From positions 1 through 64,000 of the forward strand of contig NW_023365801.1 of the NCBI RefSeq assembly GCF_000003815.2: a stretch of 64,000 nt of DNA. Reading direction: 5' to 3'. The translations under genes were made by a program, and so were the position numbers. The notes beneath the pieces were generated by a model. That model saw only the letters and a list, made by a program, of their open reading frames with translations, was not told the DNA's origin and searched no databases. The stretch comes from Branchiostoma floridae (lineage: Eukaryota > Chordata > Leptocardii > Amphioxiformes > Branchiostomatidae). Shown here piece by piece: positions 8,222 through 58,816 of this stretch; the stretch's first letter is position 1; each line of letters begins with the position of its first letter.

Positions 8222-9347
8222 TTTCATTATATTTCAGCCATACCATAGGTATGGTGAAATATATTGTATTCGTAATGTTTCTTTCTTTCTTTCTTTCTCC
8301 TGTCAAATCTTCAAATCGAATCAACTCCGCCATTTTTTAACCGATTGACTTGAAATTTGGCACAAAGGTAGAGTAAGCCAATACCCTCAGGTGTTTTTTT
8401 CATTTTTTTCATATCTGCCTTTAAAATGATTTTATTGAGGTTATTGTCAATTTTTATGTATATTTCGGGCTCCTGTACCCTGGTATTACAGCCGAATGAC
8501 ATGAAATTTGATACAGAGGTGCCTTGATCATATGCTCACCTAGATTCAATAACAGTTTTGGCATACGGTACAACAAAATGCTTAATTTTGCGATTTTTGG
8601 CCATTTTTTGACCAAAAAAGGACATTTTTGGCCCCTGTAGCCTCGTTTTACAACCAAATGATCTGAAATTTGGTATAAAAGTGCTCTTCAATTATGTGCA
8701 CATAAATTCAATAAAAGTTTTCCCATACGGTACAACAAAATGCTTAATTTTGCGATTTTTTGACCCAAAAAGGACATTTTTGGCTCCTGTAGCCTCGTTT
8801 TACAACCAAATGATCTGAAATTCGGTATAAAAGTGCCCTTCAATTATGTGCACATAAATTCAATAAAAGTTTTCCCATACGGTACAACAAAATACTTAAT
8901 TTTGCGATTTTTGGCCATTTTTTGACCAAAAAAGGACATTTTTGGCTCCTGTAGCCTCGTTTTACAACCAAATGATCTGAAATTTGGTATAAAAGTGCCC
9001 TTCAATTATGTGCACATAAATTCAATAAAAGTTTTCCCATACGGTACAACAAATGCTTAATTTTGCGATTTTATGGCCATTTTTTGACAAAATTTTGACA
9101 TTTTTGGCTCCTGTTCCCTCGATTTACAACCTAATGACCCGTAAATTGGTAAAGGGGTGCTCTAGATATTTATTCAAATGACCCATGTATATTTTTTGGC
9201 ATGGACCACTTTAAAATGATATATTTGGGGGTTTTTGGGTCATTTTTGAATGGCCAAAGGGGTCAACGACCTCAAGGCCTATTGTTGCATGAGGGAGATG
9301 GCTGAAATATGCTGTATTTGCTCTCAAGCAAATGTCGGCCTTTCTAG
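8222..9347 (+). mobile_element. Candidate Helentron-associated (DINE-1/HINE-like) nonautonomous element
   Basis: The architecture, in order, is: inverted repeat ATATTTCAGCCAT (8229-8241), a CCATACC/GGTATGG foldback, a (TTTC)n microsatellite (about 8279-8299), about four tandem units of roughly 155-160 bp (8500-9110), the inverted partner ATGGCTGAAATAT (9298-9310), a 7 bp stem-loop ATTTGCT-CTCA-AGCAAAT (9316-9333), ten bases, then CTAG (9344-9347) followed by T. Inverted subterminal repeats, microsatellite, minisatellite, 3' hairpin and a terminal CTAG are the described features of DINE-1/Helentron-derived elements. No Rep/helicase ORF is present. The 5' boundary is approximate. Confidence 0.6.
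8500..9110. repeat. Tandem satellite, unit about 155-160 bp, about 4 copies
   Basis: The word TACGGTACAACAAA recurs at about 8565, 8727, 8879 and 9040. Units share AATTTTGCGATTTTTGG, a CTGTAGCCTCGTTTTACAACC block and a TGATCTGAAATT block. One unit lacks about 11 bp. The array lies inside the DINE-like element. Confidence 0.85.
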
Positions 9348-13479: not shown

Positions 13480-14040
13480 ACTGACCCAAATAAATTTTGT
13501 AGGCAGCAATTCTACAAAAGAATTGTAAGTTTTTGATTTTTCATGATGCCATACTAACAGGTTTTTGACTGGCATATTTTGCCAAATTTAATAATTTTGG
13601 TTTAAACAATGAGGTTTATTCCTTAACTAGAATTGTTTTCCTATATCAGTAACATCTTATGTAATTGTATGAAAAATTTATGATCAAATGATCATAATTT
13701 ATGCTGATTTGATTATGTCATCGGTCAAAGTCCAAGATGGCTGACCATATCATGAGTGACTTTATAATCAGATGATTTTAACTCAAATTTCTCCAATACA
13801 TTCTATTTTCATACAAAAGCTATTCATTAGAATGTGTTTTGCGAAAACTTGAGAAATCTTTAGAACATTCAAAATTGCCGATTTAAGATGGCGGACATAT
13901 GACGTCATTTTCTGATGTCATTTTGAAGTCATTGTGGTGATCATGGGCAACAGAAGTCTCGGCAGACTAAAACATTAATATGGCATCGTTAATGTTTTGT
14001 TTGGTACCTAAAAGTATAACGGAAACTCCCTGTGTAGACG
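13480..14040. repeat. Diverged relic related to the piggyBac-type element
   Basis: The stretch around 13675-13745 (CATAATTTATGCTGATTTGA, then CCAAGATGGC) matches the reverse complement of 18580-18660 in the piggyBac-type element. Further along are AAGATGGCGGAC with TGACGTCAT words. I see no termini. Confidence 0.4.
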
Positions 14041-18200: not shown

Positions 18201-18843
18201 TTTAACCCTCAAACCACCGTATGGGGTCAAAACTGACCCCAGGCGTATATCGATGTGTGCCATTATGGCATTTCTGGTCGAAAACAAATTTCCTTTCATG
18301 AGTTTGTTTGTATATATGTCCTATAACTTCTCATACATTTTTACCGAGATTGGCTCATTGTTGATTAAGTTATCCTAGAAAGTTTATGCATGGTCCAGTG
18401 GGGTCAAAACTGACCCCAGCATTTTTTTAAACAAACTTTTGCGACCCACACCTAAACTACTTATTGTAGGATCACGAAATTTTCAGAGAATGATGTACTT
18501 GTAAGCCACAGTTATGGTAACAACTTTTGTGCCTTTATCATGTTATATGACGACATTATGACGTCATCTAGGTAATCTCGGCCGCCATCTTGGATTTTGG
18601 CTGATGACGTCATCAAATTAGCATAAATTATGAATATTGAGTCATGAAATTTACGCTGAATTTCATAAGATGTGATAAACAATTGTTATTTGCTAAGAAA
18701 ACCTTAAAACTTAAGAGCGAATGTCTGTAAGGGTCAAACAATGGTGGCACCGGTCAAAAAATAGATTTGGCTCATTTTTTGCACAGTGATAGTACTTGGT
18801 ACACAACCCCTCAAAATAGCTTTCTTTCTTCTCAGAACCCCTC

Positions 18844-18857
18844 GTTGCCATGGCAAC
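18844..18857. promoter_or_regulatory. RFX X-box-like palindrome
   Basis: GTTGCCATGGCAAC is a perfect 14 bp palindrome matching the RFX-factor X-box consensus. It recurs in the other arm at 21924-21937 and once more outside the arms at 22124-22137. Function is untested, and the palindrome could simply be part of the transposon. Confidence 0.4.
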
Positions 18858-19197
18858 AGGCCAAAGAAGTTTGGGGGCCATTTTGCCGGATTTGAGCATT
18901 TCAAAAACATGAAAATTGGCTAACTTAAGGGCACTATCACTGAACAATGCTTTAACTAAACAACAAAGGCAGAATATGCTGATCAGAGCAATGCCTAAAC
19001 TTGTATGAAATAGCAGTAAAGTTAATCTCCTGTAAATTCTAAGGCCCTGGGCAGCCTGAATACAATACACTGTTTTCAGGTTGTAAAGAATCTGAAATTT
19101 TGCCCAACTTCAAAGCACTGAAAGTCCATAAGTATAAAATATTTTCGCTTGCAATTTACTGCAAATAATAACCTACTATAGGGCTATTAGATGAATG

Positions 19198-19760
19198 CTA
19201 GCAAAGTTTGGGTTCTTGTTTTGTTGCTATGCAATCGTCCGTCGAAGTGGGTCAAATTTCATGATTTTGATAATATGTCATTTTGTGCTCTCTTTAAACA
19301 ATCATAAGTCCCATACCAAAGTTGCTCTGCAATTAAAACTCACATGGATTATAAACCAATGTATTGTCTATCAAATGCATGTTTGTAAAGTTTGGGTTTT
19401 TGTTTCGTTGCTACGTAATTGTCCTTTAAAGTGGGTCATTTTTTATGATTTTGATAAAATACATTATTTTGCATCATCTTCGAACAATCATAACTCACAA
19501 GCCAAAATTGTTCTGTAACTAGAATTTACCTGAAATGTAAACCAAGATATTGTTTCTCAAGGTCATGCTTGTAAAGTTTGGGTTCTTGTTTTGTTGCTAA
19601 GCAATTGTCCGTTAAAGTGGGTCAATTTTCATGATTTTGATGATATATCATTTTGTGCTCTCTTTGAACTGTAATAAGTTGCAAAGTAAATTTGTTCTGA
19701 AATTGAAATTAACAAGGAATACAAACGAATAGATTGTCTATCAAATGCTTGTTTGGACAG
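19198..19760 (+). repeat. About 184 bp tandem repeat x3 in the palindrome arm
   Basis: AAAGTTTGGGTT recurs at about 19204, 19388 and 19572, each followed by TTGTTTTGTTGCTA-like and AAGTGGGTCA words. The mirror array lies at about 21020-21585 in the other arm. Confidence 0.85.
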
Positions 19761-20077
19761 TTCGAGTTCGGGTATTCTAACAGTGAATGTACATGTTCCT
19801 GAAAGTAGGTCGTATTCCACTGACTTTTCCACAAATCACGTTCTTGACAACAGTGATACACATGTCACAGTCTTTGTTTTTATAGAACCGATGTAGCAAT
19901 GTGCTATCACCATAACAAAACATTTGTAGGGATTACATTCTACACAATGTCATATTTATGTTTAATGTCAGATTAATCCACTCTGAACTTTCAAACATTC
20001 TGCTAGTTTTACTGCTAAGCATGATGTATGACCACAGTCTTGAACATGTTTGCATCCCCACAATATGGCGACTTATT

Positions 20078-20733
20078 NNNNNNNNNNNNNNNNNNNNNNN
20101 NNNNNNNNNNNNNNNNNNNNNNNNNNNNNNNNNNNNNNNNNNNNNNNNNNNNNNNNNNNNNNNNNNNNNNNNNNNNNNNNNNNNNNNNNNNNNNNNNNNN
20201 NNNNNNNNNNNNNNNNNNNNNNNNNNNNNNNNNNNNNNNNNNNNNNNNNNNNNNNNNNNNNNNNNNNNNNNNNNNNNNNNNNNNNNNNNNNNNNNNNNNN
20301 NNNNNNNNNNNNNNNNNNNNNNNNNNNNNNNNNNNNNNNNNNNNNNNNNNNNNNNNNNNNNNNNNNNNNNNNNNNNNNNNNNNNNNNNNNNNNNNNNNNN
20401 NNNNNNNNNNNNNNNNNNNNNNNNNNNNNNNNNNNNNNNNNNNNNNNNNNNNNNNNNNNNNNNNNNNNNNNNNNNNNNNNNNNNNNNNNNNNNNNNNNNN
20501 NNNNNNNNNNNNNNNNNNNNNNNNNNNNNNNNNNNNNNNNNNNNNNNNNNNNNNNNNNNNNNNNNNNNNNNNNNNNNNNNNNNNNNNNNNNNNNNNNNNN
20601 NNNNNNNNNNNNNNNNNNNNNNNNNNNNNNNNNNNNNNNNNNNNNNNNNNNNNNNNNNNNNNNNNNNNNNNNNNNNNNNNNNNNNNNNNNNNNNNNNNNN
20701 NNNNNNNNNNNNNNNNNNNNNNNNNNNNNNNNN
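20078..20733. other. Assembly gap (656 N)
   Basis: A run of N at the centre of the palindrome, so the loop of the element, and any transposase in it, is unseen. Confidence 0.99.
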
Positions 20734-22071
20734 TGTTCAAACATGTTCAAGACGGTAGTCATACGTCATGCTTAGCTTTAAAACTAGCAGAATGTTCAGA
20801 GTGGATTAATCTGACATTAAACATAAATATGACTTTGTGTAGAATATAATCCCTACAAATGTTTTTTTTTCCATGGTGATAGCACATTGCTACATCGGTT
20901 CTATAAAAACAAAGACTGTGTATCACTGTTGTCAAGAACGTGATTTGTGGAAAAGTCAGTGGAATACGACCTACTTTCAGGGACATGTACATTCACTGTT
21001 AGAATACCCGAACTCGAACTGTCCAAACAAGCATTTGATGATAGACAATGCATTTGTTTGTATTCCTTGTTAATTTCAATTTCAGAACAAATTTACTTTG
21101 CAACTTATTACAGTTCAAAGAGAGCACAAAATGATATATCATCAAAATCATGAAAATTGACCCACTTTAACGGACAATTGCTTAGCAACAAAACAAGAAC
21201 CCAAACTTTACAAGCATGACCTTGAGAAACAATATCTTGGTTTACATTTCAGGTAAATTCTAGTTACAGAACAATTTTGGCTTGTGAGTTATGATTGTTC
21301 GAAGATGATGCAAAATAATGTATTTTATCAAAATCATAAAAATGACCCACTTTAAAGGACAATTACGTAGCAACGAAACAAGAACCCAAACTTTACAAAC
21401 ATGCATTTGATAGACAATACATTGGTTTATAATCCATGTGAATTTTAATTGCAGAGCAACTTTGGTATGGGACTTATGATTGTTTAAAGAGAGCACAAAA
21501 TGACATATTATCAAAATCATGAAATTTGACCCACTTCGACGGACGATTGCATAGCAACAAAACAAGAACCCAAACTTTGCTAGCATTCATCTAATAGCCC
21601 TATAGTAGGTTATTATTTGTAGTAAATTGCAAGCGAAAATATTTTATACTTATGGACTTTCAGTGCTTTGAAGTTGGGCAAAATTTCAGATTCTTTACAA
21701 CCTGAAAACAGTGTATTGTATTCAGGCTGCCCAGGGCCTTAGAATTTACAGGAGATTAACTTTACTGCTATTTCATACAAGTTTAGGCATTGCTCTGATC
21801 AGCATATTCTGCCTTTGTTGTTTAGTTAAAGCATTGTTCAGTGATAGTGCCCTTAAGTTAGCCAATTTTCATGTTTTTGAAATGCTCAAATCCGGCAAAA
21901 TGGCCCCCAAACTTCTTTGGCCTGTTGCCATGGCAACGAGGGGTTCTGAGAAGAAAGAAAGCTATTTTGAGGGGTTGTGTACCAAGTACTATCACTGTGC
22001 AAAAAATGAGCCAAATCTATTTTTTGACCGGTGCCACCATTGTTTGACCCTTACAGACATTCGCTCTTAAA
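20734..22071 (+). repeat. Right arm of the 1.3 kb palindrome
   Basis: The inverted partner of 18711-20077. A 119-codon open frame is the same in both arms (18711-19070 minus, 21711-22070 plus) but resembles no family I know. Shared frames are expected from the near-identical DNA and are not evidence of coding. Confidence 0.9.
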
Positions 22072-23786
22072 TGTTTAATACAGATTTATAAAATTTCGTA
22101 ATAAATATGTCTGTCAGAATTCCGTTGCCATGGCAACATGAGAAATCATGAACATACTTTGTTCACTGAAAATGTTTGCTTTCAACATTTTCTAAAAAGT
22201 TACCAAGTTTAGTGGCCCTAGCATAAGCTATTCAGGCGCTACACGACATTGAAGTTGGTACAGGCATCAAAAACCTCCTTCCCGGTCTGAATAGCGTTGG
22301 TGCAAAATGTGGTCCTCATGATCTTTTGCATAAATTATGATAATGAGCTAGAAGTATTCTCACCTAATCATGTCAGACTGTCTCACATAGATTAATGAAA
22401 CTATACATATATACAAATCACAAAAAGAGTCACCAAAAAAACTGTATTCGTACAAAACGTTTTGGGGTCAGTTTTGACCCCATACGGTAATCTACGTCAC
22501 AAAAAAGCTACGGTGGTTTGAGGGTTAAGGTGAAGAATTATGTTCTGAATCCTTCTAATATTGCCATAACATTACAAGCACACTGGAATAGCTGTAAAGT
22601 CAATGAGATGTCTTTCAGGAATACCATCTTTCCTTCAATCTTTACTTTTTGCAGAATGTCGTAAAAGTTAAAGATTTTTCTAAATCTACTTCAACCTAAA
22701 AAAATCGTACAAATTTATACATGTCGTGTAAGAAGCACAATTCTGGATAATAACTGGTCATATGGCTGTTATAAACAGATATGCCAAATGTTGTTTTACA
22801 TTGTTCGATGATAAAGTCAATTTGATTTTTGATATGCTCAGCTCCGGACTTAGAATAAATACGTAGTCAAAAGTTCTGACGTCAGTCGTGCAAAACATGA
22901 AATACTTTTGGGAAATGGTTCTACTCATTACCCTTCATATCTAACTATCATTACCTATTGATTTCTAACAAAATATTATCCACAATGTAAAAGAATTCTT
23001 TGAAAAATAAGAAAAACATGAAACTTACACGATTCTTTATCAAAGAAATTTGATTGCTCAGCAGCCGCCAGGAAAGGTGCATTAGGCTATATCGACGTGA
23101 CTACGTGAAAAATAATGATAATGATAGTGAGATAATGAAGATGAAATTGTTACAACTTACTTCTTAAGCTTATATTGATTTAATCAAGCCTCATTGCCGG
23201 GTTGTAATAAGACTCTGCTTAAGTGATAATTTGTCTCCTTGACTCCTTCATCAGTTAGTACGATTGATGAACACCTCTGGCCCAATCAATAGGTATAAGA
23301 TTTACACATTAACCAGATAGCACAACGTTAACCCTCTGGAAACTAATTCATTAGACATATAGTCGCATTTCGTACGCCAGTCAATACTTCGTATAAAATT
23401 CATGCCCTTTACTTAGGACATGGAACCATCAAATACGCATAATGGAAGGGAAAGGCTTGAATGAACATGTACATTGTGTATATGATTATATCGATGTATA
23501 TATGCTGAGCAGCACAACTGAACTAAGTTCACTGATGAAGGATAGGTTGGAGTGGAGAAGGAGGGTCCGGCATGCTTCCCGTGTTGGCATCTGATGATGT
23601 CCTCGACTGACTGTTATGCTGAATTATGATATAGTTTGGCTGTGTGACAACACTTTTATCTGTTCAAGGACATTTATACTGACATTTGTACTTTTGGCCG
23701 GCTGTGCCTTACTATTAATGGTGCTTGGAAGCAGTTATTATTATCATTGTTATCGCAGACACCACCTGCGGTCATATCAAATCATA

Positions 23787-32750: not shown

Positions 32751-33335
32751 TCAAAAACACAAGGTTCCCCACTTACCCCGATGCTTCTCCAGCTTCCCTC
32801 TCCGAGATGCAATAAGACGTTCAGTTTTTTCAAAAGTATATATCAGTTTTTTAAAGGCCTGAAAGTTAATCATTTTAAAGCGTCTACACCGGAAAATAAA
32901 AACTTTACCTAACAAAATAATCAAATTTTTCAGTGGGGGCGCATCGTTACATGTATCTCCAAATATGATGATAAAGGCGTTTAGGTCAAAATCTATAGAA
33001 GTTTCCACTCGTAACCAACTTTGTACATCATTCCAAAAGGATACAACATGCGGACACTCCCAGAAAACATGAGTATAGGACTCTACATCATCGTGACAGA
33101 AAGAACAGGAGTTAGAGTCTATTAATTTCCATATATGTAGAATTTTGTTACAAGGTAAGAATTTATTAATTAAACGGTATTGAAAGTATCTAGCACTAGG
33201 ATCAATAGTACATCTGTATAAATTTGTAAATACTTCTCGCCATGGTATAGGTTTGTCAAAATGATAAAACCAAGAAAGTCTAGTATTATGTGCAAGACTG
33301 ACATCGTTCATGGACGTAAGAAAGTAGATATACAT
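32751..33335 (-). CDS. LINE ORF2 C-terminal part with Cys-His knuckle
   Basis: The frame continues ORF2 beyond the gap. It has FYHFDKPIPWREVFTNLYR, KFLPCNKILHIWKL and the C-terminal knuckle CSFCHDDVESYTHVFWECP (CxxC...H...C), which is conserved at the end of L1/Tx1 ORF2. The apparent start Met at 33335 is only the first ATG, not a true start. Confidence 0.8.
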   Translation of the reverse strand: MYIYFLTSMNDVSLAHNTRLSWFYHFDKPIPWREVFTNLYRCTIDPSARYFQYRLINKFLPCNKILHIWKLIDSNSCSFCHDDVESYTHVFWECPHVVSFWNDVQSWLRVETSIDFDLNAFIIIFGDTCNDAPPLKNLIILLGKVFIFRCRRFKMINFQAFKKLIYTFEKTERLIASRRGKLEKHRGKWGTLCF

Positions 33336-33394
33336 GCTTTTGTTGATTTTTATGTTTCGTAACCATTTATAATTTTTTTGAAAGGGCAGGCACA

Positions 33395-33566
33395 NNNNNN
33401 NNNNNNNNNNNNNNNNNNNNNNNNNNNNNNNNNNNNNNNNNNNNNNNNNNNNNNNNNNNNNNNNNNNNNNNNNNNNNNNNNNNNNNNNNNNNNNNNNNNN
33501 NNNNNNNNNNNNNNNNNNNNNNNNNNNNNNNNNNNNNNNNNNNNNNNNNNNNNNNNNNNNNNNNNN
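33395..33566. other. Assembly gap (172 N)
   Basis: A run of N inside LINE ORF2. Confidence 0.99.
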
Positions 33567-33585
33567 TCTATGAAAGAACTAAGGC

Positions 33586-35055
33586 CTACGATCTATTTCT
33601 ACCATCAATGATAATTTTAGAGTTTAAACAAATTAATTGCTGTCGTATATTTGCCGGCGTCGTGGGCTCTACTTGCTGAAATTTAAACCAGGCCATAAAA
33701 ACTTCAGAAAAAAATCCTTTTAAACAAAGGTTTTTCACTGAGGACAGTTGGTAAAAAGGAAATAAACTATGACTAAGTTGAGGATGAAAGACTGTTACCC
33801 AAGAGGAAAACCATTCGGGATGGGAATAAAGTTTAGGTACCCATGAAGCTTTTATAGAAGAGTTAAATGCACGTAAGTTTTTTAAATTAAGTCCTCCATT
33901 TTCAAATACATTGTATAATACCTTCCGTGCAACTCTTTCAGGACCGTCGTCCCAAATAAAAGAAAATATCTTCTTTTCATATGCTTTGAAAAAGGAATCG
34001 TCAGGGGATGGTAAGACTTGAAATAAATTCGTAAACTGGGGAACCACCAAGGTGTTAATAATAACAATTTTACCATACAGGGACAAATATTTATTCTTCA
34101 TAGGGCGTAATAGTCTATCTAGTCTTTCCAGACGGGGTTCGAAATTAACGTTTGTGATTAAGTTTAAATCAACAGGAATATTGATGCCCAGTAGGTCAAC
34201 ATCCCCGTCAACCCACTGTATCGGTAGATGGGTGGGCAAACGAAAATTAGATAACTTCAAGGGACCTAGTCGTAATATTTTGCATTTATCTACATTTAGA
34301 GAAAGACCTGAGATATTAGAAAAACGCTCTAGATCCGACAACAAGGCATAAAATGATTCTAACTTTGGTTCGAAAGGAAAATTTGAATCGTCGGCGTATT
34401 GTGATATCTTTGTAGTTTTTTCGTATATCTTTAAACCCCGTATAGAATGATTAGACCTGATCTTAATAGCAAGCACCTCAACCGCCATGAGAAAAAGATA
34501 AGGGGACAATGGACATCCTTGGCGAACTCCGCGACTTAAAATGAAGGGGTCTGAAATATAACCGCTGTTTATAACGCAACTCGTTGTTTTTTCATATAAG
34601 ACCTTTACCCATGTAATTAGCTGTGGACCAAAGTTGAAGAATTCTAAAGCTTTAAATATGAAATCCCACCTTAACGTGTCAAATGCTTTTTTAAAATCAG
34701 CCACAAATATTAACCCAGGTTTACTCTCTTGATCATAATGTTCTATTGTGTCTATTAGTCTTCTAATATTGTCGCCTATATACCTATCCTTAATAAACCC
34801 TGTCTGATCCTGTTCAATTATGTCCGTAATTACATGTTTGATTCTCAAAGATATGCATTTGGAAAGTATTCTTGTGTCACAACCTAAAAGGGTAAGGGGG
34901 CGCCAATTCCCCATGGCAGTTGGGTCCTTGTCTATACCTTTACTGTCTTTTTTGAGTAGCAATGAAATAAGTCCTTTTCTTTGAGTTTCTGAGAGACATC
35001 CATTACCAAATGAATAATTAAAACATGTTAACATTGGTTTTTTTAAAGACATCAA
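33586..35055 (-). CDS. LINE ORF2 middle part: reverse transcriptase
   Basis: A frame of 489 codons with non-LTR RT blocks in order: NWRPLTLLGCDTRILSK, GFIKDRYIGDNIRRLID, ADFKKAFDTLRW, GVRQGCPLSPYLF, the catalytic YADD (about 34384-34401), GLSLNVDKCKIL and LLGINI. The DN in block 2 and the RT type fit L1/Tx1. It overlaps the endonuclease frame at its start, in a different phase. It ends at a TAG just before the N-gap, so a second break there is likely. Confidence 0.9.
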   Translation of the reverse strand: MMSLKKPMLTCFNYSFGNGCLSETQRKGLISLLLKKDSKGIDKDPTAMGNWRPLTLLGCDTRILSKCISLRIKHVITDIIEQDQTGFIKDRYIGDNIRRLIDTIEHYDQESKPGLIFVADFKKAFDTLRWDFIFKALEFFNFGPQLITWVKVLYEKTTSCVINSGYISDPFILSRGVRQGCPLSPYLFLMAVEVLAIKIRSNHSIRGLKIYEKTTKISQYADDSNFPFEPKLESFYALLSDLERFSNISGLSLNVDKCKILRLGPLKLSNFRLPTHLPIQWVDGDVDLLGINIPVDLNLITNVNFEPRLERLDRLLRPMKNKYLSLYGKIVIINTLVVPQFTNLFQVLPSPDDSFFKAYEKKIFSFIWDDGPERVARKVLYNVFENGGLNLKNLRAFNSSIKASWVPKLYSHPEWFSSWVTVFHPQLSHSLFPFYQLSSVKNLCLKGFFSEVFMAWFKFQQVEPTTPANIRQQLICLNSKIIIDGRNRS

Positions 35056-36526
35056 AACAAATCTTATAGACTTCTATAGGTATACCATCAATCCCTGGTG
35101 CTTTCCCAGCCTGAAATGAATGTATTGCATTTTTCAATTCTTCTTCGGTTATTAGACCTTCACAAAGTTGCTGTTGCTCATCTGATAAACGTTTACCATA
35201 GTCCTCGGGGAAAAAACCATCACAATTTACATCAGAAAGAGGCATTGGAATATCTTCAAAAGAGTACAGTTCAGAATAAAAATTAACCTGATCAGAAAGA
35301 ATGTCTTTTGGGTTAGAAGTTACCTCCCCCGAGGGCCTTTTGAGTCGTTGTATATTTTTTCTTGTATAATTACGGTGAATTAGATTTATAAAATATTTAG
35401 TGCACTTTTCCCCCAGCTCCATCCAACGTGATTTTGACCTTAACAAGATACCATTGAGACGTTCATTATACAAAGATTCTAATAACTTTTGTTTATAAAT
35501 TAATTCATCTAGTTGGGCGGGTGGGGGAGAGGCGACACTATCAATTTGACTCTGCAACATATTAATTTCGTCAATCAGTTCTTTTTCTTTCATCAGGTAT
35601 TGTTTTTTTCTCCAGCTACTAAATTTAATACAGTGACCACGAAAAAAGCACTTTGCCGTATCCCAGACAATTTGAGGATTTGCGGTGTTGACGTTATTTT
35701 TAAAAAATTCTGACATAATTTGTTTGGTCTGTACAAGAAAAAGTTTGTCATCAAGAAGGGATTGATTAAATTGCCAGTAGCCAGGCCCTCGTGGGAAATC
35801 CGCCGTAACAAAAGACAAGGTGATTAAATTGTGATCAGATCTAAATTTGTCTGCAATAGAACACTTAGTAACTCTGTTTAATAATGAAAAGGATATCAGA
35901 AAATAATCTAGTCTACTAGCATAGAGCCCCCGACGCCACGTATACCGAACAACATTAGGGTTTCTAAAACGCCACACATCATGCAAGTCGAATTTTCCTT
36001 TTAGCTCTGAAATAGCTTCTAGTGCGTTAGGGTGATAATTTCGAAGTCGAGCACCTGATCTATCCATGGCTGAATTCTGCACTGTATTAAAATCTCCCAC
36101 CACAACTAAATGTTCATTACTAATCTCAAATGTATCTATAGCTTCTTCTAATTCCTTAAAAAAGGACGGACAGTCATCATTAGGAGCATATAAATTCACA
36201 AGACAAAAATGTAAATTGTCTACCTCGATGTCTAACACAATCCACCGTCCACTTTCATCCGTTTTAACCTGATGAACCTGAACGCTGGCGCTACTCTTTA
36301 TCAAAATAGCTACCCCTCTTTGATTTGAAGTACCATGGGAGAAATATATTTGTCCACCCCATTCGTTCTGCCATCTTTTTTCATCTCTTACAGTTGTGTG
36401 TGTTTCTTGTATACAATATAAGTGGTAAGGTTTGTCACTTAACCAGGTAAAAAGTCCCATTCGCTTGTGAAAATCCCCCAGCCCGTTACAATTGTAACTA
36501 GAAATCCGACACTCTACCTTAGACAT
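35018..36526 (-). CDS. LINE ORF2 N-terminal part: APE endonuclease and linker
   Basis: The 502-residue frame starts MSKVECRISSYNCNGLGDF. AP-endonuclease motifs follow in order: SYNCNGL, CIQETH, LVNLYAPN, VVVGDFN, SRLDYFLIS and SDHNLITLSF. This enzyme nicks target DNA to prime reverse transcription. The rest is a linker rich in Lys/Glu, ending GKAPGIDGIPIEVYK, the RT0/RT1 entry. The frame then breaks at an A7 run near 35038-35045, where the RT frame takes over. It reads as a one-base insertion. Confidence 0.88.
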   Translation of the reverse strand: MSKVECRISSYNCNGLGDFHKRMGLFTWLSDKPYHLYCIQETHTTVRDEKRWQNEWGGQIYFSHGTSNQRGVAILIKSSASVQVHQVKTDESGRWIVLDIEVDNLHFCLVNLYAPNDDCPSFFKELEEAIDTFEISNEHLVVVGDFNTVQNSAMDRSGARLRNYHPNALEAISELKGKFDLHDVWRFRNPNVVRYTWRRGLYASRLDYFLISFSLLNRVTKCSIADKFRSDHNLITLSFVTADFPRGPGYWQFNQSLLDDKLFLVQTKQIMSEFFKNNVNTANPQIVWDTAKCFFRGHCIKFSSWRKKQYLMKEKELIDEINMLQSQIDSVASPPPAQLDELIYKQKLLESLYNERLNGILLRSKSRWMELGEKCTKYFINLIHRNYTRKNIQRLKRPSGEVTSNPKDILSDQVNFYSELYSFEDIPMPLSDVNCDGFFPEDYGKRLSDEQQQLCEGLITEEELKNAIHSFQAGKAPGIDGIPIEVYKICFDVFKKTNVNMF

Positions 36527-37894
36527 ATTGATGATATTCTCTGGGAGTTAAAAACTTCTCGGAGAGGAAAGCTGGGTCAGGTCATCGGAGCACAGGATTC
36601 TCTCAGGTGATACTGCTGGTACATAACTATAAGTAAAATAAACTTGGGGAACCATCAAACATAAACATAAAAATGTAAAGCAGTGAAAATGAATCAGAAT
36701 AAAGATAACAGTAACAAAATAACAGAACAATTCATACAATGATTCAAGTGAACTCAATTGCAAAATCATAAATTTGTAACCATAAATCGTGCAATAAGAG
36801 GCAAAATGAACAAAAATCATAACTGGTATTAGCTCAGTCATGGTTACCATAGCAACCGCTATGAACTCAATGTGGACAAAATGAGGGGTAACGTCAGGAA
36901 CCAGAAATGGAGTTAGCTTGATAACAGAAATGAACTCAATATCAATATCAATTAAGTAGAAACAATAAAGTGCCAACATAAATTAATGTTCAGTTCAACA
37001 GCGGTTGCCAAAATAACAGGAACCAATTCAGTAATAATCAAGCAAGTAACAACAAAATCATGAGACATAACTTGCGTTAGCTTAGAGTTGGTAGCTATAG
37101 TAGATGATATAAAGTCAATATGAATCAAACAAAAGCCATGTAAGAAATGATACATATCGGCTTGAGTTGATTTACTGATAGCTGGAACATTAGTAGGAAT
37201 TAAATCAGTGTAGGTCAAAAGAGAAATAACCGTAACATAAAACTTATTAAGGGTGGCCATGAATACTACAAAAGGGAGGTCTTCATAATAACACCAAAAA
37301 ATAAACAGACAGACAGACAGGGTATCAGCTACCCTGTATAACAAAAGAATATACATAATGGTATACAACTGAGAATCCAAGATCATTTTCTTTTTCCGGT
37401 GGTATCTGGGCATTCGCTCCATTATAATTAATCGTTCAAAACTCAAAGACAGAGGCCCAGTCACTGAGCTCAGGTAAGTTAGCTCAATCATAAACTCGAA
37501 ATAGACTGAACGGAGGTAAACAACACACAAAACAAGAGTTAAGGGAGCAAAAACAAAACTTGTTTCACCCATTCGAATACAGAGTGTTGCGCCTCCCTAA
37601 GCTAGTCTTAAGAAAATTCCACAATTACAAGAGTACCATCGAACGCTGTATTCAAGATTGTTTCTTAATTCCTCAAAAAACTTGGGTGTACAAAAAAGGC
37701 AGATCCTCTGTGAATCCCAAGGAAAACAGAAACGATCGACTTGGGAATCTGGCACCTGCCTTTATCATCCATATACATTAACATAACAACGGGTCGAAAA
37801 ATGTCTCGCAGAAGGCATGCAGATGGCCACTGTACATAACGTTAAATACTCAGTCCAGAATAGATTAACCTGGTCATCTAGTCCAGTTATCCAC
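36527..37894 (-). other. LINE inter-ORF spacer with internal subrepeats
   Basis: A 1.37 kb stretch between ORF1 and ORF2. Degenerate repeats with the words ATGAACTCAAT, GTTAGCT and AACTGGTATTAGCTCAG recur through 36700-37150. Two hydrophobic open frames here (36548-36979, 36952-37572) resemble no family and probably follow from the base composition. A CATAGCAACC X-box-like word lies at about 36848. It could host an internal start for ORF2 translation. Confidence 0.5.
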
Positions 37895-38716
37895 CTAGCC
37901 TGTGGGTAAATCATCTACACATTCAACGTTCTTGGTAGTATCGTCTGATAGCTTAATGATGATTCGGCAGTTGGCGTCGACCCAGACGTCTTTCAGGAGA
38001 TTCTTCCTCTTTGCCGATAAAGCTGCCGAAAAGGTTGTCATGTTCTCACGCGTCAGGTCAGCAGAAACGAGCAATGGTTTTCCCTCGTCGTCACGTTTCC
38101 CCTTTAGTTTAGTCCTGGCACGGAACACTTTGTTGCGATCTTGGTATGAAATAAACTTCACAAGCATGATCCGTGATGAGTTGTTTCCAGTCTTTACGCC
38201 AACACGGTGTGCGCGGTCAATACACTGTTGCAGGATTTCAATACCCAGTTTAACACGACAGAAATTCAAGACTTTCTGAATACAGTGTTCACTTCTTTCA
38301 CCAGCCTCCTCTGGAATTCCTCTGATACGCAAACTATTTCTCCGTGTATATTGTTCCAAAGAGTTAATAGCGTTACTCACGTCGCGTGCGGGTGGGAGGG
38401 GGGTCTTTTCCAAGTCGTGAATCTTATCTTCTACGCGTGACAAGCGATCTTCTAACTCGTCTTGACGATTGAGAATCTTGTCAAGTTCTTCACGCAGTTC
38501 CTTCAATTCACTCGATTTAGCCACCTGCTGTAGTTCAATCTTGATAGGCTGTAGTGCGCTCTCAATGGCGGACTTGATGTCGGAAATAGTAAAGGAGCTC
38601 TCCGCCATGTTGGACTCAGAGTCCTTCGCCTCGTTCAGTTTTTTGGCCGCCTCTTGTAGATTTTCCCCGCTTCCTGACCGTCTTTTCCTCTTTGCGGACC
38701 TTGTCCTCACCATCAA
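37895..38716 (-). CDS. LINE ORF1 RNA-binding protein (L1 ORF1p/Transposase_22-like)
   Basis: A frame of 273 residues. It starts with a basic RTRSAKRKRR stretch, then a long heptad-rich region (about residues 45-130, with ELREELDKILNRQDELEDRL) typical of a coiled coil that forms trimers. A RRM-like segment begins NSLRIRGIPEEAGE, followed by a basic C-terminal domain. This is the order of L1 ORF1p, the nucleic-acid chaperone that coats LINE RNA. The frame is intact. It lies about 110 bp inside the 5' end of the element. Confidence 0.88.
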   Translation of the reverse strand: MMVRTRSAKRKRRSGSGENLQEAAKKLNEAKDSESNMAESSFTISDIKSAIESALQPIKIELQQVAKSSELKELREELDKILNRQDELEDRLSRVEDKIHDLEKTPLPPARDVSNAINSLEQYTRRNSLRIRGIPEEAGERSEHCIQKVLNFCRVKLGIEILQQCIDRAHRVGVKTGNNSSRIMLVKFISYQDRNKVFRARTKLKGKRDDEGKPLLVSADLTRENMTTFSAALSAKRKNLLKDVWVDANCRIIIKLSDDTTKNVECVDDLPTG

Positions 38717-38827
38717 AGTTACCGTGAGGTACTCTGAGTATTTAAAGCTTAAAGGGGAGTGCAGAAAACACTCAGTTAATGGGAGACATCCGCAAGGACG
38801 TCTTCCCTGGTCGCCATCTTGGACACA
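38717..38827 (-). promoter_or_regulatory. LINE 5' leader with YY1-like site
   Basis: Within 10 bases of the element's 5' end is CCAAGATGGCGACC, matching the YY1 site (CAAGATGGC) that sits at the start of mammalian L1 and guides transcription start. The leader before ORF1 is only about 110 bp. Confidence 0.55.
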
Positions 38828-38839
38828 ATCAAAAATGTT

Positions 38840-40440
38840 AACGTAACATTCAAAATGTTAACTTGTCAATTCTTATGCTGTGTTCCGTGCAACATGCGTA
38901 TATATGAAACTGGGAATGCAATATCAATATTAAAAGAAGAAAAAAATGTTAATCATGCATATTTTACCCTCATCATTTACAAAAACAAAATTTGTCAATG
39001 TTTTCATATTTTATTACCTTTTCTATCTTCGTTTTTTCAATTCTCTCTTATCAAAAATGCCCCCAAAACACATTTTTGCGGTGAAAAACAAGGCTGTGTA
39101 AGCAAGAGGAACTACATGTATAAGCCTCGGAATATCGCCGTGCATTTCCATAGGATCGATTCAAGGTACTGTTAAAATCTGCAGTCATGGTCTGCTGTTA
39201 TTGACGTAATGGTATGTAAGTTAATTAGACATATAGAAACTTCGATAACCAAACGTACCATTTAAATCGTCTAAGCCGTACTTCAGTATAGCACTCCCGG
39301 AACGATCTCTAACTGCTTATTTATTTTTTATTTATTTCTGTTTGCTTAGGGTTGACACACTCAACATTTTGCGCACTGCTTTTCAGGCGTGCCCTGTACA
39401 GAATAACATACACAAAATAGAATATAAAATGCTTTTAAAAATGTTCAGGGCAAAATCATGACCACTACGAAGTAAGACTGTGTCTAGCAGATAACATTAA
39501 GGCGCCTGGTCAGTATTTGCGTTTAAGATTGTCTTATCTGTTAATGGATCCTACATTAGTCTGGCACCAAGAAAGGTAAATCGGTGACGCAGGGTAAAAG
39601 ATTTCTTCCTCTTTTTATTGATTGTATAATTGACGGTGTCTTGGGTAAAAGAAGTACAAATTCAAGTTTCAAATAACGGAATGATGGGCATATAGTGCTG
39701 CGTAGTGAGTTACATCGAAATGGTTCAGGCACCTTTACAGTGGTAATGAACACATTTTTCAGTGGAACTAAACACGAATTAAGACTAAGAAAGACATCGT
39801 CTGTATAATAGCACGTGAATGCTTCCTTAAGCACACAAAATTCAGCCATATCTGTCAAGGCTTTTCATAGCACCGTTTTAAATGACACTAATAGCTCTGT
39901 AAATACAGAAATTATTGCAAGGTTTCTGAATATCTCATTTTAGGAAACAGTGATTAATACTTCTGGAGATACCACAGTGTGTGGGAGCTTTCAGAGCTAT
40001 TCCTGGAAAATGGCCTAACATAAAGAGCTTTTGATAGCATTTCATCTACTACAGCTGCCCATGCTGCGGGGGATGCACCTTAAAGTTTGTGCCATCGATA
40101 TATCCTCTCTAAATCATTTCATTCATAGTAAATGAGAAGGCACTAGAAATAAACGAAAATTGGCTTTGACAGGAAATCGACGCCCACTATCAATTTCCAA
40201 CGAGTTATCGGGGACCATTGAGGCATACAAATGAGGCTAACTATTTCCGTACTACCTCTTATGTAAGTCGACTCGCCCTGTGGGCTCGGGGTTGATTTGA
40301 GCGTAAGGCGGCAGGTGGTGGTCGTCTCTAATGCACCTACGCAGATTGTATCGCACCCTTTACAGCCCTGACTGCCACCTGGTCGTCTGCTCTACGGCGT
40401 TCTAGATCATTTTTTTTATAATTTGATTTCTATCTTATAG
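38840..40440. other. Region between the LINE and the GPCR gene
   Basis: No exon or repeat recognised apart from AT-rich sequence. The last few hundred bases must hold the GPCR promoter if exon 1 is the first exon. I see no TATA box that I would defend. Confidence 0.4.
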
Positions 40441-40887: not shown

Positions 40888-43800
40888 GTGAGCGTTTTTA
40901 TATCCTTACAAATACCAAACAGATCTACGGCTTCTAACCCTGTTGTCTTTCTATAGATTCCATGCAGTATTTGAAAAACCCATTTGTAGTTTGTAAAGTC
41001 AAGTGTTGTTTCACAATTTCTCATGGTACTCGAAGACATCCACATGAAAAAAAACCACGATGTTACCAAGTTGCTATCTGAAGTGCGCATAACTCGAGAA
41101 TAACCAATGCTGTGAGAGTAAATCTCTTAACATTCGCATTTAGTCAATGAAGTTGTGTTTGGGTGTCCGTTGGAATCATGAGAGGTGACGTTACATGGAA
41201 CAAATTGTCTCTATTGACAACGGACAACTTCGTCATCCAAAAAAATCTTAAGGATACTTCTAAGAAATTGTCATTTAAACGCAGCATGTGAGAACATATG
41301 GTAGCATGGATGAGAGCTTTGAAAAATAATAGGAATATTTGGAACGTTTGTCTAAGACATTTTTCTCTTATATTTTCAAGAGCAAATTGTTTTTATTTGT
41401 ATTGACGATCAAACATATAGATACAGTGGCCTTACCACATATGGTAGGGTGTTTATTGTTTTATAGGACGTATTTGCTAGCAAAATTGTTACAATGTGTA
41501 TTTAAGTCATGATTTAAGTCCTATTTCTAGAAAAGTGAAACAGACACCTTTTTTGCACTTTACAATTGTCAGTGAATGCAATGATATAGCCCGTGGCTCG
41601 TTGAATAGGAAAGAAAGAAACATCACATGCATTCTAATGTATCACGAACAAGGCATTCACCACATTCTATGTGCCTTATCTGCCTTTCTACCACATCTTA
41701 CTAACTGTCATGATAACGATTTTAAATTCTGAAGCATGCACACAAGCTCTCATATAAGAAAGCTTTAAAGTTATCTGTTGTCAATGATGATATATTTCAA
41801 AGCATCTCTCTTAATTGATCACTCTATACCGTGTTGTCAATGTTGATATATGTCAAAGTATATTTCTTCATTGATCGCTCTATTGTATTGAAAAATTATA
41901 CCGCATGCCTCAATAGTTCAATCCCATTAAAAGTAGTTCAGTTTAAGCTTGAGAGCAACAGCAAACCATCGTTCAATCCTTGACTTTGAAGTAACCTATC
42001 CTTCCATCGACAGTTGCTATGCTTATTCTAGTGGAATACTCCTTTTCCGTCACGGTTTGTGTAATGGCGCTAACGACGACGGAGTCACAGGTGGCAGAGT
42101 GTAACAACAGGATGTAGTGAAGGTTCTTTGAGTATCGTCTGTACTGCCCTTGTAAGCTATTTTGGTTGATAATCTGAGCTGAGTGGACGTGCAACCTAAT
42201 CGAATATCTAGCTGGCTGCGGCTGCTGACTAATATTTTGTGTATTCAAGGCGAATGCTGAGGCTATCTAGAAGCACTACAGATTGTCATATGGTACTGAC
42301 GTGTACAAATTGCCTTTTTCATCCACAGAATATTGACCATATACTATCTGACGCTCAAAAAAATATCAATCTTTTTTTTGTCTGGGCATGCCAGTGTGCC
42401 CTTTCCTCCACATTTTCATGAACCCTCACCTTATGATCAGTTTGCCCATATGCCAAGTAATTTTCCTGGACAAGCTTCGATGACCCCTCCTTGATATCTA
42501 CCTTATATATAGGTTGTTGCAGCAGCTTGTTGGGCGGCTGTGCGGTGGCCTTCACATCCAAACCATTACATGTATAATCATTTTTATATTGGATAGTTTA
42601 TAAAAAGATTGCAGTTATAATCTGTACAGCCTTGACTTACGTATTTCGATGTTTGTACATTAACCGGAAAGAAGATAACTAAGAAAACCTCAATCATCTT
42701 CATATGACGTAAAACAGAATGTGATATGACGATGATTAAGGTTTTTTAGTTAACTTCTTTCCGGTTAATATACAGATATCAAAATACGTAAGTCAAGGCT
42801 GTACAGATAACTGTAATCGTGCATATGAGCTACAGAACTCTGTACTTTACCATACTAAAGTACTAAAGTCGTCAGTATACAGTAATTTGAGCATGAGTTG
42901 CAGAGGGGGAGCGCGAAAACAGGACAGGGGGATAATCATAGCTGCATGGACGTCATTGCCGGTTTGCCACATAATCAAAACGCATGTTGGTGGCATTTCA
43001 AAAGGCTCCGGGATGCTATTATATAGTATTAGATTGACACGAATTGCCTTGCCAATCACGGAAATGTAACGCGTAGCTAGCAGGTGTAAGTATTCACAGA
43101 AAAATCTTGGTTGAAACTTCTGACATTCAAAGTAACAAAAATGCTATGTCTGAAAGGTATACGTCCATTTGTTTGATAGTCATATGCAATATGTAGCTGC
43201 GAGTTAACGTCGATCAGTCAAGTTTGTATGTCAATTAAAGCAAAATATTTCGACAAACAAGAGGTCTGATACGTCCATGAAATAGCCGGGCCAGGTAGCC
43301 AAGGCAGAGATGTACACAATGATATGTATGCTATGCAAATGAAGACCTAATTTTCATGATTAATGAGAAACTTATACAAATCTATTATTTTTCATAACTG
43401 GATTATTCAATTAATGTAACACGTTTGATGACTGGAGGAAAATAGACAGATACCAAACATACAAATGATGAACTGTTTTGCATAATTAATGCAACAATAG
43501 CAAAATTGCTTAATCATAAATGATGGAATTTTTTACTTGTGACACGGTGTAAGCTAATCAATGATAAACATCGACATACATAAGTTATGCAAATAAGTAT
43601 GTCATTTGCATAACATCTTCAAAGGCTCTAAATATTTCATGAAGGTATGAGGTCGCCTAACTCTAGTTTCAAATTTTGTTTTGTTTACCATAAGTTTTAC
43701 CGAACAGGCCTCTGTGATACGATTGAATAGCAATAAACTGTATGGCGTTTGTAGTAGAGAGCAACTCATACCTCACACAAATCATATGTATCATTTAATT

Positions 43801-55800: not shown

Positions 55801-58800
55801 TGTATCAAGAAGGTCTACGTGGGTAATTTTACAGTTTTGTAACATTCCATTCTTTGATATTCCATCTACACACTCAGGTTCCAGGTCATCATCAATCCAC
55901 GAAAGCCGAAGATGTCAAGATGTCGGTCTGTGCAGATCATCACTGCCATCTGGGTGTTCAGCGCCCTCATCATGTGGCCACAGGCGTTGGTGATCGAGAA
56001 CAAAGAAGAGGTACTACCCGGCTACCAGAACCAGACCATGCAGTTCTGCGATGAGCAATGGCCATCTGTTGAGTACAACCAGGTACACGCCTCTCACAGA
56101 GAGATCATGATTCTTAAGCATGAAAGCGTATCTGGGATAGTAACGTCTGGTTTGACAACAGGAAAATAAGTCACCCAAACAAAGCTAAATAATCGATACT
56201 TCGCTTTTGTCAGTGCCTGATCTAGAATGTTGGTTGGTTGTTTCGTTGGCTGCTTGCTTCTTGGTTATTTGGTTGTCTTATTTCTCTACTGTTTGCTTAA
56301 AGATATTGAATGATTGTTGTTTGGTGGTTTGATTTTTCTTGTTTTTGACCTGGGAAGAGAAATTGGATGGTTTGTGGAATACTCGAAATCTTAGCATTCA
56401 TTCATTTTAGACCTTCTAGATGGACCCAAACTTTTCTCTCAGAAAACGGAAACTTTCCTCTCAGAATACTTCAGAAGATCGATCTTTGTTAATTAACGTG
56501 GCTGAAAATGTATAGCGTGCCCCGGAACATTGATTGTTTTAGATGGAGTGGGATTCTAGAATTTTTCACACCAAACGTGCGTCACACGTTTCGTCAAAAA
56601 GTAATGAGGCCCAGTGCGGTTAACAGATTGGTCCCGAGATGGCTGATTACGTGTATTACCGCCCAGTTGGAGCGTACTGTCTATAGTTCAGTGATCCAAA
56701 TCCATCAATCTGCTACGGACTCAGGTACAGTGAGGACAAAGTTTCCATAACTGGTGTGATGCTGTATATGTAGAAGCATTAAATAATTCGGCATATCCCT
56801 CTTAGCTCACTTGCAGGTAATATAAAACCGGCAGTCTTGATTTTTGGGAGAATACGTACAACACAACCGTCAAAATGAGTTTAAATTTATAGACGTCCAG
56901 AGCAATCGTTTCAGAATTAATTTCAGGGCACAAAGCGTATTGATAAAGACTTGAATCGATGACTGTTATTTAATTATGTACCGCTACAAATGACCAAACT
57001 ACGACTAAAGTCGAAGTTAGAGATGCAGACACTTGCAAAATCCAGCCGCAGGTAGACAGGAAATATCCATTTGTCATTTCCTAAATTCCTACCCTCTAAA
57101 TATTTTTGAAGCCGTTATCTCCAACTGCTTATTCCCTCAAATATCAAATCGAGAATGAAACAGGAGGATATACCTGACATAACTTTTTATCCTCTATCGT
57201 GGGACATTTTCATATGTCGCCTGGTGGATGGGCGGAATAGTTAACAGAGCAACTGAAAAGAAACACCAAGTATGTGTCTTAGGAACTCTGTGTAAGCCCA
57301 TCCCAGTAATCGAAATTCATCAATTTGTTACAGCCCCGATCGGGTAAATGAACTTTAAAGGTAAACATTCCCAACTGTTATGCTGTTAGCAGGTTGTTAA
57401 TTCACTTTATCTTGGGAATGGTACAGGTATAGAAAGGCCCATCCCACTTCTTCCACGGCTTTTTACCTCCCTAACCGAATTTACATACCCATTTACACCC
57501 AAGTGGAGTGATGAAGGTGGTATTTAGTAGTTTTCCCAGAACACAACGTCTAGTCAATTTTAGGAATAGAACGCGTGACGTCTCGATACCGCTTCCGTTA
57601 GCCAAGCCATTTGTAGTTAGCAAGACCTAAGTATGCACGCATGTCATTATATATCATAGTACCGTTTCTGATGCAGTACCAAGTATAGTTGCCAGGAGGC
57701 TCAAACTCGACCTTGAACGTTCCTTTAAAATTCTTATTAAGCTGCTGCTAAGAAAACACATACACATCGACAAACAACAACAAAAACTATTATCTTCATT
57801 TTCTATGGAGATAACGAATGACAAGACAAATTTGTTATTGTTGATTCTACATGTAGGCCTACACAGTCATGCTGTTTATCGTCATCTACATCGGACCTCT
57901 GCTGATTAACGTGTACCTGTACATCCGGATCTCCTTCCGCATCTGGTACAAGCCCAACCCCGCTATGGCCTCCAGCCGATCATCCAAGATGTCCAACCTG
58001 ACGCAGGTAGTGTTTTGCACCTCTGTTTATTGGATGAACACAAACAATAAACGCATGCACAAACACACACACACACACACAGTGACACACACACACACAC
58101 ACAGCCACAAACACAAAACGTATACACACACGCGCACACACGCATAACGTTACACACACAAAACGCAGTATTTCACGCGTCTTTCTGGTTGCGTGCTCGT
58201 AACAGTTCCATGTATCGTGCTTAGTGGACATGCTCAGAATAATGTTCCCGTTGACAACAGTCGTTGGGATTTGCTATTTCAGGTGTCCAAGAAGAGAGTC
58301 CGTGTGATCAAAATGCTGATCACCGTCCTGGTGCTGTTCGCTGTGTGCTGGCTCCCCATCCACGCCTGCCTCCTCATCGACTCCTTCAAGCGCCACAAGA
58401 TGACCATCTGGCAGCGCAGCTTTCTGTACGCCTACATGTTCCCGATAGCGCACTGGCTCCTCTACTTCAACAGCTCCATCAACCCCATCGTCTATGGCTA
58501 CTTCAACACCAACTTCAGACGCAGTTTCGAAAGTCTCTGCGGTGCCGCCTTTCCACTTGAAGACAGCGGCGGTACCAGTGGGAAGGAACTGAGAGGAAAC
58601 GGCCGCCCGGCAAGTGGCCGTACCTATAAAGTGAAAATCGAGATGGCGTCCACGGGAAACGGGTTGACACGGTCGCTTCGTACTGTCCAGCGCGACAGTC
58701 GGCGCAGAAAGTTTTCTCCCCCGAGCAATATGAACGGTATCACCGGTAGCAATGAGGCTGTCGAAGAGATGTCGCAAGAGAATGAAATTGTCAACATGAC

Positions 58801-58816
58801 GGAGACGAGGATGTAA
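40596..58816 (+). CDS. Neuropeptide FF receptor-like GPCR (rhodopsin family), complete five-exon coding region
   Basis: Exons 40596-40887, 54842-54941, 55878-56082, 57857-58006 and 58283-58816 join in frame to 426 codons plus stop. This gene encodes a class A peptide GPCR of the plasma membrane. Landmarks: N-glycosylation sites N3 and N14, N51 (TM1), LAISD79 (TM2), C106 with C188 (disulfide), DRF 130-132 in place of DRY, W156 (TM4), P213 (TM5), CWLP 271-274 (TM6), NPIVY 316-320 (TM7) and a likely palmitoyl C335. The block [20 protein letters not shown] followed by RFQ closely resembles NPFF receptors. These bind RFamide peptides and usually signal through Gi. Related SIFamide or QRFP-type receptors are less likely. 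The ATG has a good context (acaaaATGG). Confidence 0.88.
42607..42818. mobile_element. Foldback (hairpin) element
   Basis: GATTGCAGTTATAATCTGTA, followed by about 75 bp more, pairs with its complement ending at CTGTAATC. The arms are about 95 bp with a loop of about 20 bp, and include GTCAAGGC/GCCTTGAC and AACCGGAAAGAAG/CTTTCCGGTT. The length suggests a foldback MITE; a long hairpin RNA source is also possible. No target duplication seen. Confidence 0.75.
43919..44102 (-). mobile_element. tRNA-derived SINE
   Basis: On the minus strand a Pol III box A (TGGCGTAACCGG, 44079-44090) and a box B-like GAATTCGATCC (44037-44047) are followed by a conserved core GTGCCCTTGGGAAAGGCAAT and a tail GACTTTGGTCGGGTAGGTAA. 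The box spacing is tRNA-like. It is not a functional tRNA. Related copies lie at about 49062-49240 and 57440-57610. Confidence 0.75.
47392..47512. repeat. (CACT)n and (AAAC)n simple repeats
   Basis: A CTCACTCA run at about 47396-47420 and an AAACAAAC run at about 47480-47510, with a short GC-rich piece between. Confidence 0.85.
48099..48154. repeat. Hairpin abutting an assembly gap
   Basis: ATTCTTTATCAAATCTTGAA and the next six bases fold onto the complement with a 5-base loop (AAACA), nearly perfectly. The right arm ends exactly where the Ns start. Confidence 0.85.
48155..48445. other. Assembly gap (291 N)
   Basis: A run of N inside GPCR intron 1, next to a hairpin. Confidence 0.99.
49062..49240 (+). 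mobile_element. Decayed SINE copy
   Basis: TAGCCTAGTGGGTAGA resembles a box A, and GTTGTGCTCTTGCAATTGTA and TACACTTTACAC match the core of the SINE at 43919-44102. It is strongly diverged. Confidence 0.4.
53160..53582 (-). mobile_element. Diverged one-ended copy of the piggyBac-type family
   Basis: Read on the minus strand from 53582 it begins CCCTCATCCGACCGTA, then TAGGGCCATTTTCTGACCCC. It then follows the left end of the 18206 element block by block, including TTTCCTTTCATGAGTTTG-like and TATGTCCTATAAC-like words and the internal GGGG...GACCCC repeat (53369-53389). The flank is TTGA, not TTAA, and the other end was not found. Confidence 0.6.
54842..54941 (+). CDS. GPCR exon 2 (first extracellular loop, TM3)
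   Basis: A 100 bp exon in phase 1-2. It holds [18 protein letters not shown] and ends inside the DRF arginine codon. The acceptor is tgttttgcag and the donor ACAG|GTGCGG. The usual Trp of loop 1 (GWPF in vertebrate NPFFR) is replaced by Asn (GNPF). Confidence 0.88.
55878..56082 (+). CDS. GPCR exon 3 (second intracellular loop, TM4, extracellular loop 2)
   Basis: A 205 bp exon in phase 2-0. It starts [14 protein letters not shown], then has TM4 with [19 protein letters not shown], and a long loop 2 with an NQT glycosylation site at 182 and Cys 188. The donor is CAG|GTACAC. Confidence 0.88.
57440..57610 (-). mobile_element. Decayed SINE copy in GPCR intron 3
   Basis: The TTTTTACCTCCCTAACCG, CCCATTTACACCCAAGTG, TTTTCCCAGAACACAACGTC and GACGTCTCGATACCGC blocks match the SINE at 43919-44102 in order and orientation. 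Confidence 0.5.
57857..58006 (+). CDS. GPCR exon 4 (TM5 and start of third loop)
   Basis: A 150 bp phase 0-0 exon starting [20 protein letters not shown] (TM5 with P213), followed by [13 protein letters not shown]. The start at 57857 (acceptor atgtag) is preferred over the AG at 57866 because it restores the conserved TM5 entry in phase. Confidence 0.85.
58059..58158. repeat. (CA)n microsatellite
   Basis: An interrupted CA/CACACAAA tract in GPCR intron 4, ending about 125 bp before exon 5. Confidence 0.95.
58283..58816 (+). CDS. GPCR exon 5 (TM6, TM7, C-tail)
   Basis: 178 codons including the stop. It begins [19 protein letters not shown], then [12 protein letters not shown] (TM6), [15 protein letters not shown] (TM7) and [14 protein letters not shown] (helix 8). 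A Ser/Arg-rich tail of about 90 residues follows, with likely kinase sites (RRRKFSPP). The acceptor is tgctatttcag. Confidence 0.92.
   Translation: MSKKRVRVIKMLITVLVLFAVCWLPIHACLLIDSFKRHKMTIWQRSFLYAYMFPIAHWLLYFNSSINPIVYGYFNTNFRRSFESLCGAAFPLEDSGGTSGKELRGNGRPASGRTYKVKIEMASTGNGLTRSLRTVQRDSRRRKFSPPSNMNGITGSNEAVEEMSQENEIVNMTETRM

Follow-up and report, generated by a model that had tools for sequence, protein, structure and literature searches.

The piggyBac element of Trichoplusia ni (T. ni) carries 13-bp terminal and 19-bp subterminal repeats that are separated by spacers of 3 and 31 bp at its two ends, as given in the available text of PMC2532691. Kolobok elements, in the accessible parts of PMC9587614 and PMC6004289, have TTAA duplications and, unlike piggyBac, 5′-RR and YY-3′ termini; their transposases bear a THAP domain (PMC6004289), and KolobokP, reported in three Branchiostoma species, has long direct terminal repeats (PMC9587614). 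Excerpts of further reports describe long terminal inverted repeats (TIRs) with tandem repeats for Galileo, a foldback-like element of the P superfamily in Drosophila, whose THAP transposase domain binds sites in these TIRs (PMC3688188; TIR variation in PMC4168063), and for Tetris, an apparently non-autonomous foldback element of Drosophila virilis for which an autonomous partner was not found (PMC4079207). Here, we analysed a stretch of 64,000 nucleotides from Branchiostoma floridae (contig NW_023365801.1, positions 1 to 64,000; the window), in which a first-pass annotation had described positions 18206–22524 as a single piggyBac-type element with asymmetric termini and a giant internal palindrome. 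We are confident that the locus instead comprises two nested TTAA transposons, of which the inner one is a foldback-type element, most likely moved by a Kolobok-type transposase, with arms that appear to be kept alike.

Two TTAA elements and an empty insertion site

The outer element is flanked by TTAA target-site duplications at 18202–18205 and 22525–22528. It consists of a left part of 509 bp (18206–18714, plus strand), which contains the TTAA taken as target by the inner element, and a right part of 454 bp (22071–22524, plus strand). The left 16-bp TIR, CCCTCAAACCACCGTA (18206–18221, plus strand), is followed without spacer by a 19-bp subterminal repeat, TGGGGTCAAAACTGACCCC (18222–18240, plus strand), of which a second direct copy lies at 18399–18417 (plus strand). 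At the other end, the inverted subterminal repeat (22464–22482, minus strand) is separated by 26 bp from an inverted TIR identical to the left one (22509–22524, minus strand). The TTAA flanks, the TIR starting with CCC and the unequal spacing are thus present as first annotated. The geometry of 16+0+19 and 16+26+19 resembles the 13+3+19 and 13+31+19 of T. ni piggyBac (available text of PMC2532691), with which the outer element also shares the TTAA target, the CCC start and the combination of a short TIR with a 19-bp subterminal repeat. It differs from T. ni piggyBac in being only 963 bp long and in having no transposase. The piggyBac-type reading of the ends and of their asymmetry therefore holds for the outer element; it does not extend to the palindrome, which is a separate element.

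The inverted arms of the palindrome begin and end at a second TTAA pair inside the outer element, at 18711–18714 and 22067–22070, and so mark a separate insertion. We searched the genome (513 Mb, 431 contigs) with positions 18206–18800 and obtained 41 rows, 37 of which stop at query base 509, the inner TTAA. With the right part (22071–22524) as query, the two outer halves are found contiguous elsewhere, for example at C12:1668991-1669499 followed by 1669500-1669953. We then joined the outer halves (18206–18714 and 22071–22524) into the empty element, a non-autonomous sequence of 963 bp with a CCC start, and aligned it to the fetched loci, which yielded 13 distinct copies besides that of the window. 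The full 963 bp are covered by one uninterrupted alignment in 10 of these 13 copies, at 94–99% identity; in two the match is broken up by other deletions or insertions, and one is partial. The insert is absent from all 13, which run without a break across the insertion site and preserve it in its empty state.

These copies decide against the view of one piggyBac-type element enclosing a giant internal palindrome, to which we give next to no credence. The outer ends do enclose the whole stretch, as that view requires, but a TTAA duplication of its own and distinct termini set the palindrome apart, it is found at 20 further fetched sites where the flanks are unrelated, and the outer element exists without it. 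Since the outer element occurs empty elsewhere, we reject a single composite element, barring misassembly of those copies. The palindrome therefore cannot be counted as part of the piggyBac-type element, and its proposed origin by aberrant repair at one place is contradicted by the same long-armed element with different flanks at the 20 other sites.

The outer ends are themselves repeated. The terminal 20-mer plus TTAA occurs 303 and 325 times for the two ends (≤1 mismatch), compared with 0 and 0 for the reversed control, so the ends are not a product of chance. TTAA adjoins both ends of the outer element in the window and in six distinct copies for which flanks were printed. Exact outer-element ends are also clustered: contig C1 (G000) holds 32 of them between 29.88 and 31.02 Mb, with only three pairs at 963-bp spacing and 26 ends that have no exact partner among the matches listed, in a list of exact ends that does not contain mismatched partners.

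The transposase that moves the outer element would be of piggyBac type. PF13843 (DDE_Tnp_1_7), the piggyBac transposase domain, has 25 matches in the genome; at the three of these 25 loci that were fetched in search of an autonomous partner, no outer-end match was present in the 0.6–1.7 kb read on each side. It weighs against our reading that no transposase was found for either the outer or the inner element at the scanned loci and copies.

The order of events can be proposed as follows. The first to enter a TTAA would have been the non-autonomous 963-bp element with its piggyBac-type ends; a foldback-type element of ~3.34 kb, likewise non-autonomous and most likely mobilised in trans by a Kolobok-type transposase, would later have entered a TTAA inside it. 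The nested insertion, together with the intact empty site elsewhere, dissolves the apparent oddity of a palindrome in a cut-and-paste element. An insertion of one TTAA transposon into another is ordinary in kind, and the inner family is a neat example of a foldback element.

Structure and affiliation of the inner family

The inner element (18715–22066) is 3,352 bp long, including 656 undetermined bases (N), and has GAG...CTC ends, which in the window read GAGCGAATGTCTG ... CAGACATTCGCTC. Its left arm (18715–20053, plus strand, inner limit approximate) and right arm (20734–22066, minus strand) contain tandem repeats of ~185 bp at 19195–19827 (plus strand) and 21039–21693 (minus strand), and the assembly gap of 656 N at 20078–20733 lies over the centre. 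Aligned to each other, the arms give 1,310 identities in 1,326 columns, with 32 internal gap positions and 13 more at the inner end, in agreement with the near-identical inverted arms first described around the gap.

When the initial 501 bp of the arm were used as query, 395 first-look candidates yielded 40 scored matches, of which two were the arms of the window itself. We fetched 20 inner copies, which makes 21 with the window. Boundaries were placed by the end motif without the TTAA, except for the left end of L058, which was placed by arm alignment; TTAA adjoins all 42 ends of the 21 copies, which have the same ends and unrelated flanks. Genome-wide, the ends occur 105 times in forward and 108 times in reverse orientation (≤2 mismatches; controls 0 and 0), and these counts suggest a family of ~105 copies. 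Paired ends span ~2.0 to 6.4 kb among the 100 places listed.

The standard form is well defined. Fifteen of the 20 fetched copies measure 3,309–3,387 bp (five of the 15 with internal N) and have two arms of ~1.33 kb around a centre of ~0.68 kb. The gap of the window has about the right size, since the inner element there, at 3,352 bp, falls within this range. Copy L068, from which 1,333 bp were cut at each end, has a gap-free centre of 676 bp, the ends of which are in part inverted. Long arms are a recurrent feature of the fetched copies, of which several are shortened by deletions or gaps. With near-identical 1.33-kb TIRs and ~185-bp tandem units in both arms, the family is built like a foldback element, and ~105 natural long-palindrome copies in one genome are a good set for examining the persistence and likeness of long inverted repeats in eukaryotes.

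Inverted arms might have been produced by the assembly, and the 656-N gap at the centre of the window and the N runs within the element in 8 of the 20 fetched copies are what such an error could leave behind. We consider this explanation very improbable. Eleven fetched copies have N-free arms, an alignable centre and no deletion that truncates an arm, and they occupy different places, spread over nine contigs; moreover, the arms differ by point changes and thus are not one collapsed sequence. A pure assembly artefact is rejected as a general explanation, since the same structure sits at 20 other fetched sites. The gap does suggest that the centre was difficult to assemble here.

The 1.33-kb arms would represent the TIRs of the inner element, lengthened by the ~185-bp tandem units, and these units may hold extra transposase binding sites. 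The idea that the units are repeats of the terminus has weak support, which counts against our reading: 104 of 2000 shuffles score as high, and so does 1 of the 41 further 30-mers taken from the arm.

The inner termini read GA...TC in all 21 copies and so follow the 5′-RR...YY-3′ rule. They are neither CCC nor CAC, as in piggyBac-type ends, and the terminal repeats are inverted, not long direct repeats of the KolobokP type. By its termini and TTAA target, the inner element is most likely of Kolobok type. With Kolobok it has in common the TTAA duplication and the 5′-RR...YY-3′ termini, as these are given in the accessible parts of PMC9587614 and PMC6004289; it departs from Kolobok in its 1.33-kb inverted arms and in that scans of four longer copies detected no transposase. 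An inner element that is also of piggyBac type, moved by the transposase of the outer element, would use the same TTAA target, piggyBac-domain genes are present in the genome, and TIRs of up to 493 bp are reported for bee piggyBac elements in the available text of PMC10140906. The GAG...CTC termini speak against this alternative, which we regard as improbable.

The longer copies were scanned for coding sequence. Pfam searches in six frames detected no transposase in the centre of L058 (4.16 kb), in the interiors of L072 (5.07 kb) and L071 (6.4 kb) or in the central 1.9 kb of the 4.49-kb copy L077; in these four copies, the only matches were below threshold and to the unrelated families CBM9_2 and Bac_rhamnosid6H. 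The domain PF20700, which we presume, as a guess, to be that of Kolobok, has 40 matches in the genome, none of which lies inside an inner copy when positions are compared by eye with the 100 of 213 ends listed. L071 (G000:C14:21046459-21053071) is a diverged relative of 6.4 kb that has the same termini as the inner family and holds an extra internal block of ~185-bp units. Together with L076 and L077 it forms a second inner subfamily, whose members are mutually 97–98% alike over 0.6–1.15 kb and 72–85% like the first subfamily over longer aligned stretches. The centres of L072 and L058 contain other DNA, and the insert of L072 (L072 1464–3680) bears inverted ends of its own, AGATCGTTTTCACA ... 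GTGAAAACGATC.

A short module is also shared beyond the inner family. The sequence around TGATGACGTCATCAGCC..AAAATCCAAGATGGCGG (window 18582–18649, within the outer element) recurs inverted at 13652–13750 with 77% identity and, again inverted, in the second inner subfamily (L077 64–132; 69 bp, 90%), so that different TTAA elements share it.

Among described foldback elements, Galileo has similar long TIRs with tandem repeats (accessible part of PMC3688188) and belongs to a different superfamily. Tetris resembles the inner element in being apparently non-autonomous, in its long tandem-repeat TIRs and in its missing autonomous partner, with a tandem unit of ~220 bp compared with ~185 bp here (accessible part of PMC4079207); it has another host, and the likeness is one of described structure. 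Open-access literature on Kolobok and foldback elements offered, in the titles available, only satellite-DNA studies, and a description may exist elsewhere, for example in Repbase. If the Kolobok assignment is correct, long tandem-repeat TIRs would have arisen twice in THAP-type transposons, in Galileo within the P superfamily and in the inner family.

Variants shared between the two arms of a copy

We compared the arms in the 12 of 21 copies (11 fetched copies and the window) in which both arms are fully readable. Because of N gaps or truncation, L055, L057, L060, L062, L064, L065 and L069 did not enter this comparison; L056 and L061 were excluded for their internal deletions. With 11 copies oriented by their centre, none of the 64 informative sites separates left from right arms. 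Across the 12 copies, a minor allele is shared by both arms of one copy in 72 cases and confined to a single arm in 49. When right arms were shuffled among copies, the mean number of shared alleles was 16.1 and the maximum 53, and 72 was reached in 0 of 1000 permutations; the excess holds in all 12 leave-one-out sets, again with 0 of 1000 permutations each. Changes private to one copy are found 46 times in both arms (18 of them from L059) and 97 times in one arm only. We divided the arms into six segments, with L059 left out, and found the sharing in the four outer segments matched by 0 of 500 permutations. The arms of the diverged copy L071 are 95% alike to each other over 832 bp and 83–85% like the main family.

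Based on these shared variants, we infer with moderate confidence that one arm is copied onto the other by conversion or repair. Gene conversion between the arms would maintain their likeness, or else copying through a hairpin or gap repair in the life cycle of the element. The further proposal is a tentative one: the ~105 copies would form a foldback family of Kolobok type in an animal genome, and the arms of its palindromes would undergo concerted evolution by repeated overwriting (conversion or transposition-linked hairpin or gap-repair copying).

The simplest alternative is that the copies are young and their arms alike without any homogenisation. Arms of different undeleted copies are ~97% alike on average, and both the 97 private one-arm changes and the finding that an arm's own partner is its nearest relative for only 11 of 24 arms are what youth would leave. 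Youth does not readily account for the 46 copy-private changes that sit in both arms, for a degree of sharing matched by 0 of 1000 permutations, or for arms in L071 that are 95% alike while 15–17% off the main family. We therefore consider it unlikely.

Several further observations, like the low count of nearest partners, weigh against copying between arms. The two innermost arm segments are matched by 7 and 9 of 500 permutations, and a few sites in the inner segments keep left-only or right-only alleles. An earlier, cruder test took all 14 copies that are free of N in the 1,300 bases at each end and gave mean identities of 0.965 within and 0.960 between copies; L056 and L061 had within-copy identities of 0.857 and 0.795, under the between-copy mean, because the comparison over a fixed length of 1,300 bases extended beyond their deletions, and the other 12 copies each exceed their own between-copy mean. 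Variant sharing could also partly stem from an assembler that merged near-identical arms, or could be inherited from few source copies. L071 is less open to the objection of merging, because its arms are 95% alike yet only 83–85% like the main family.

Other features of the window

The window contains a non-LTR (long terminal repeat) retrotransposon at 32751–38857 (minus strand), with frames for an endonuclease (PF03372) and a reverse transcriptase (PF00078) and a frame at 37895–38857 without Pfam match. A tandem array with units of ~152–162 bp lies at 8468–9151. The 67-bp inverted repeat at 42620–42808 (91% identity, 55-bp loop) is perhaps another small element. A frame at 58148–58816 (plus strand) matches the C-terminal part of a rhodopsin-family seven-transmembrane receptor (PF00001) and is probably an exon of a host gene.

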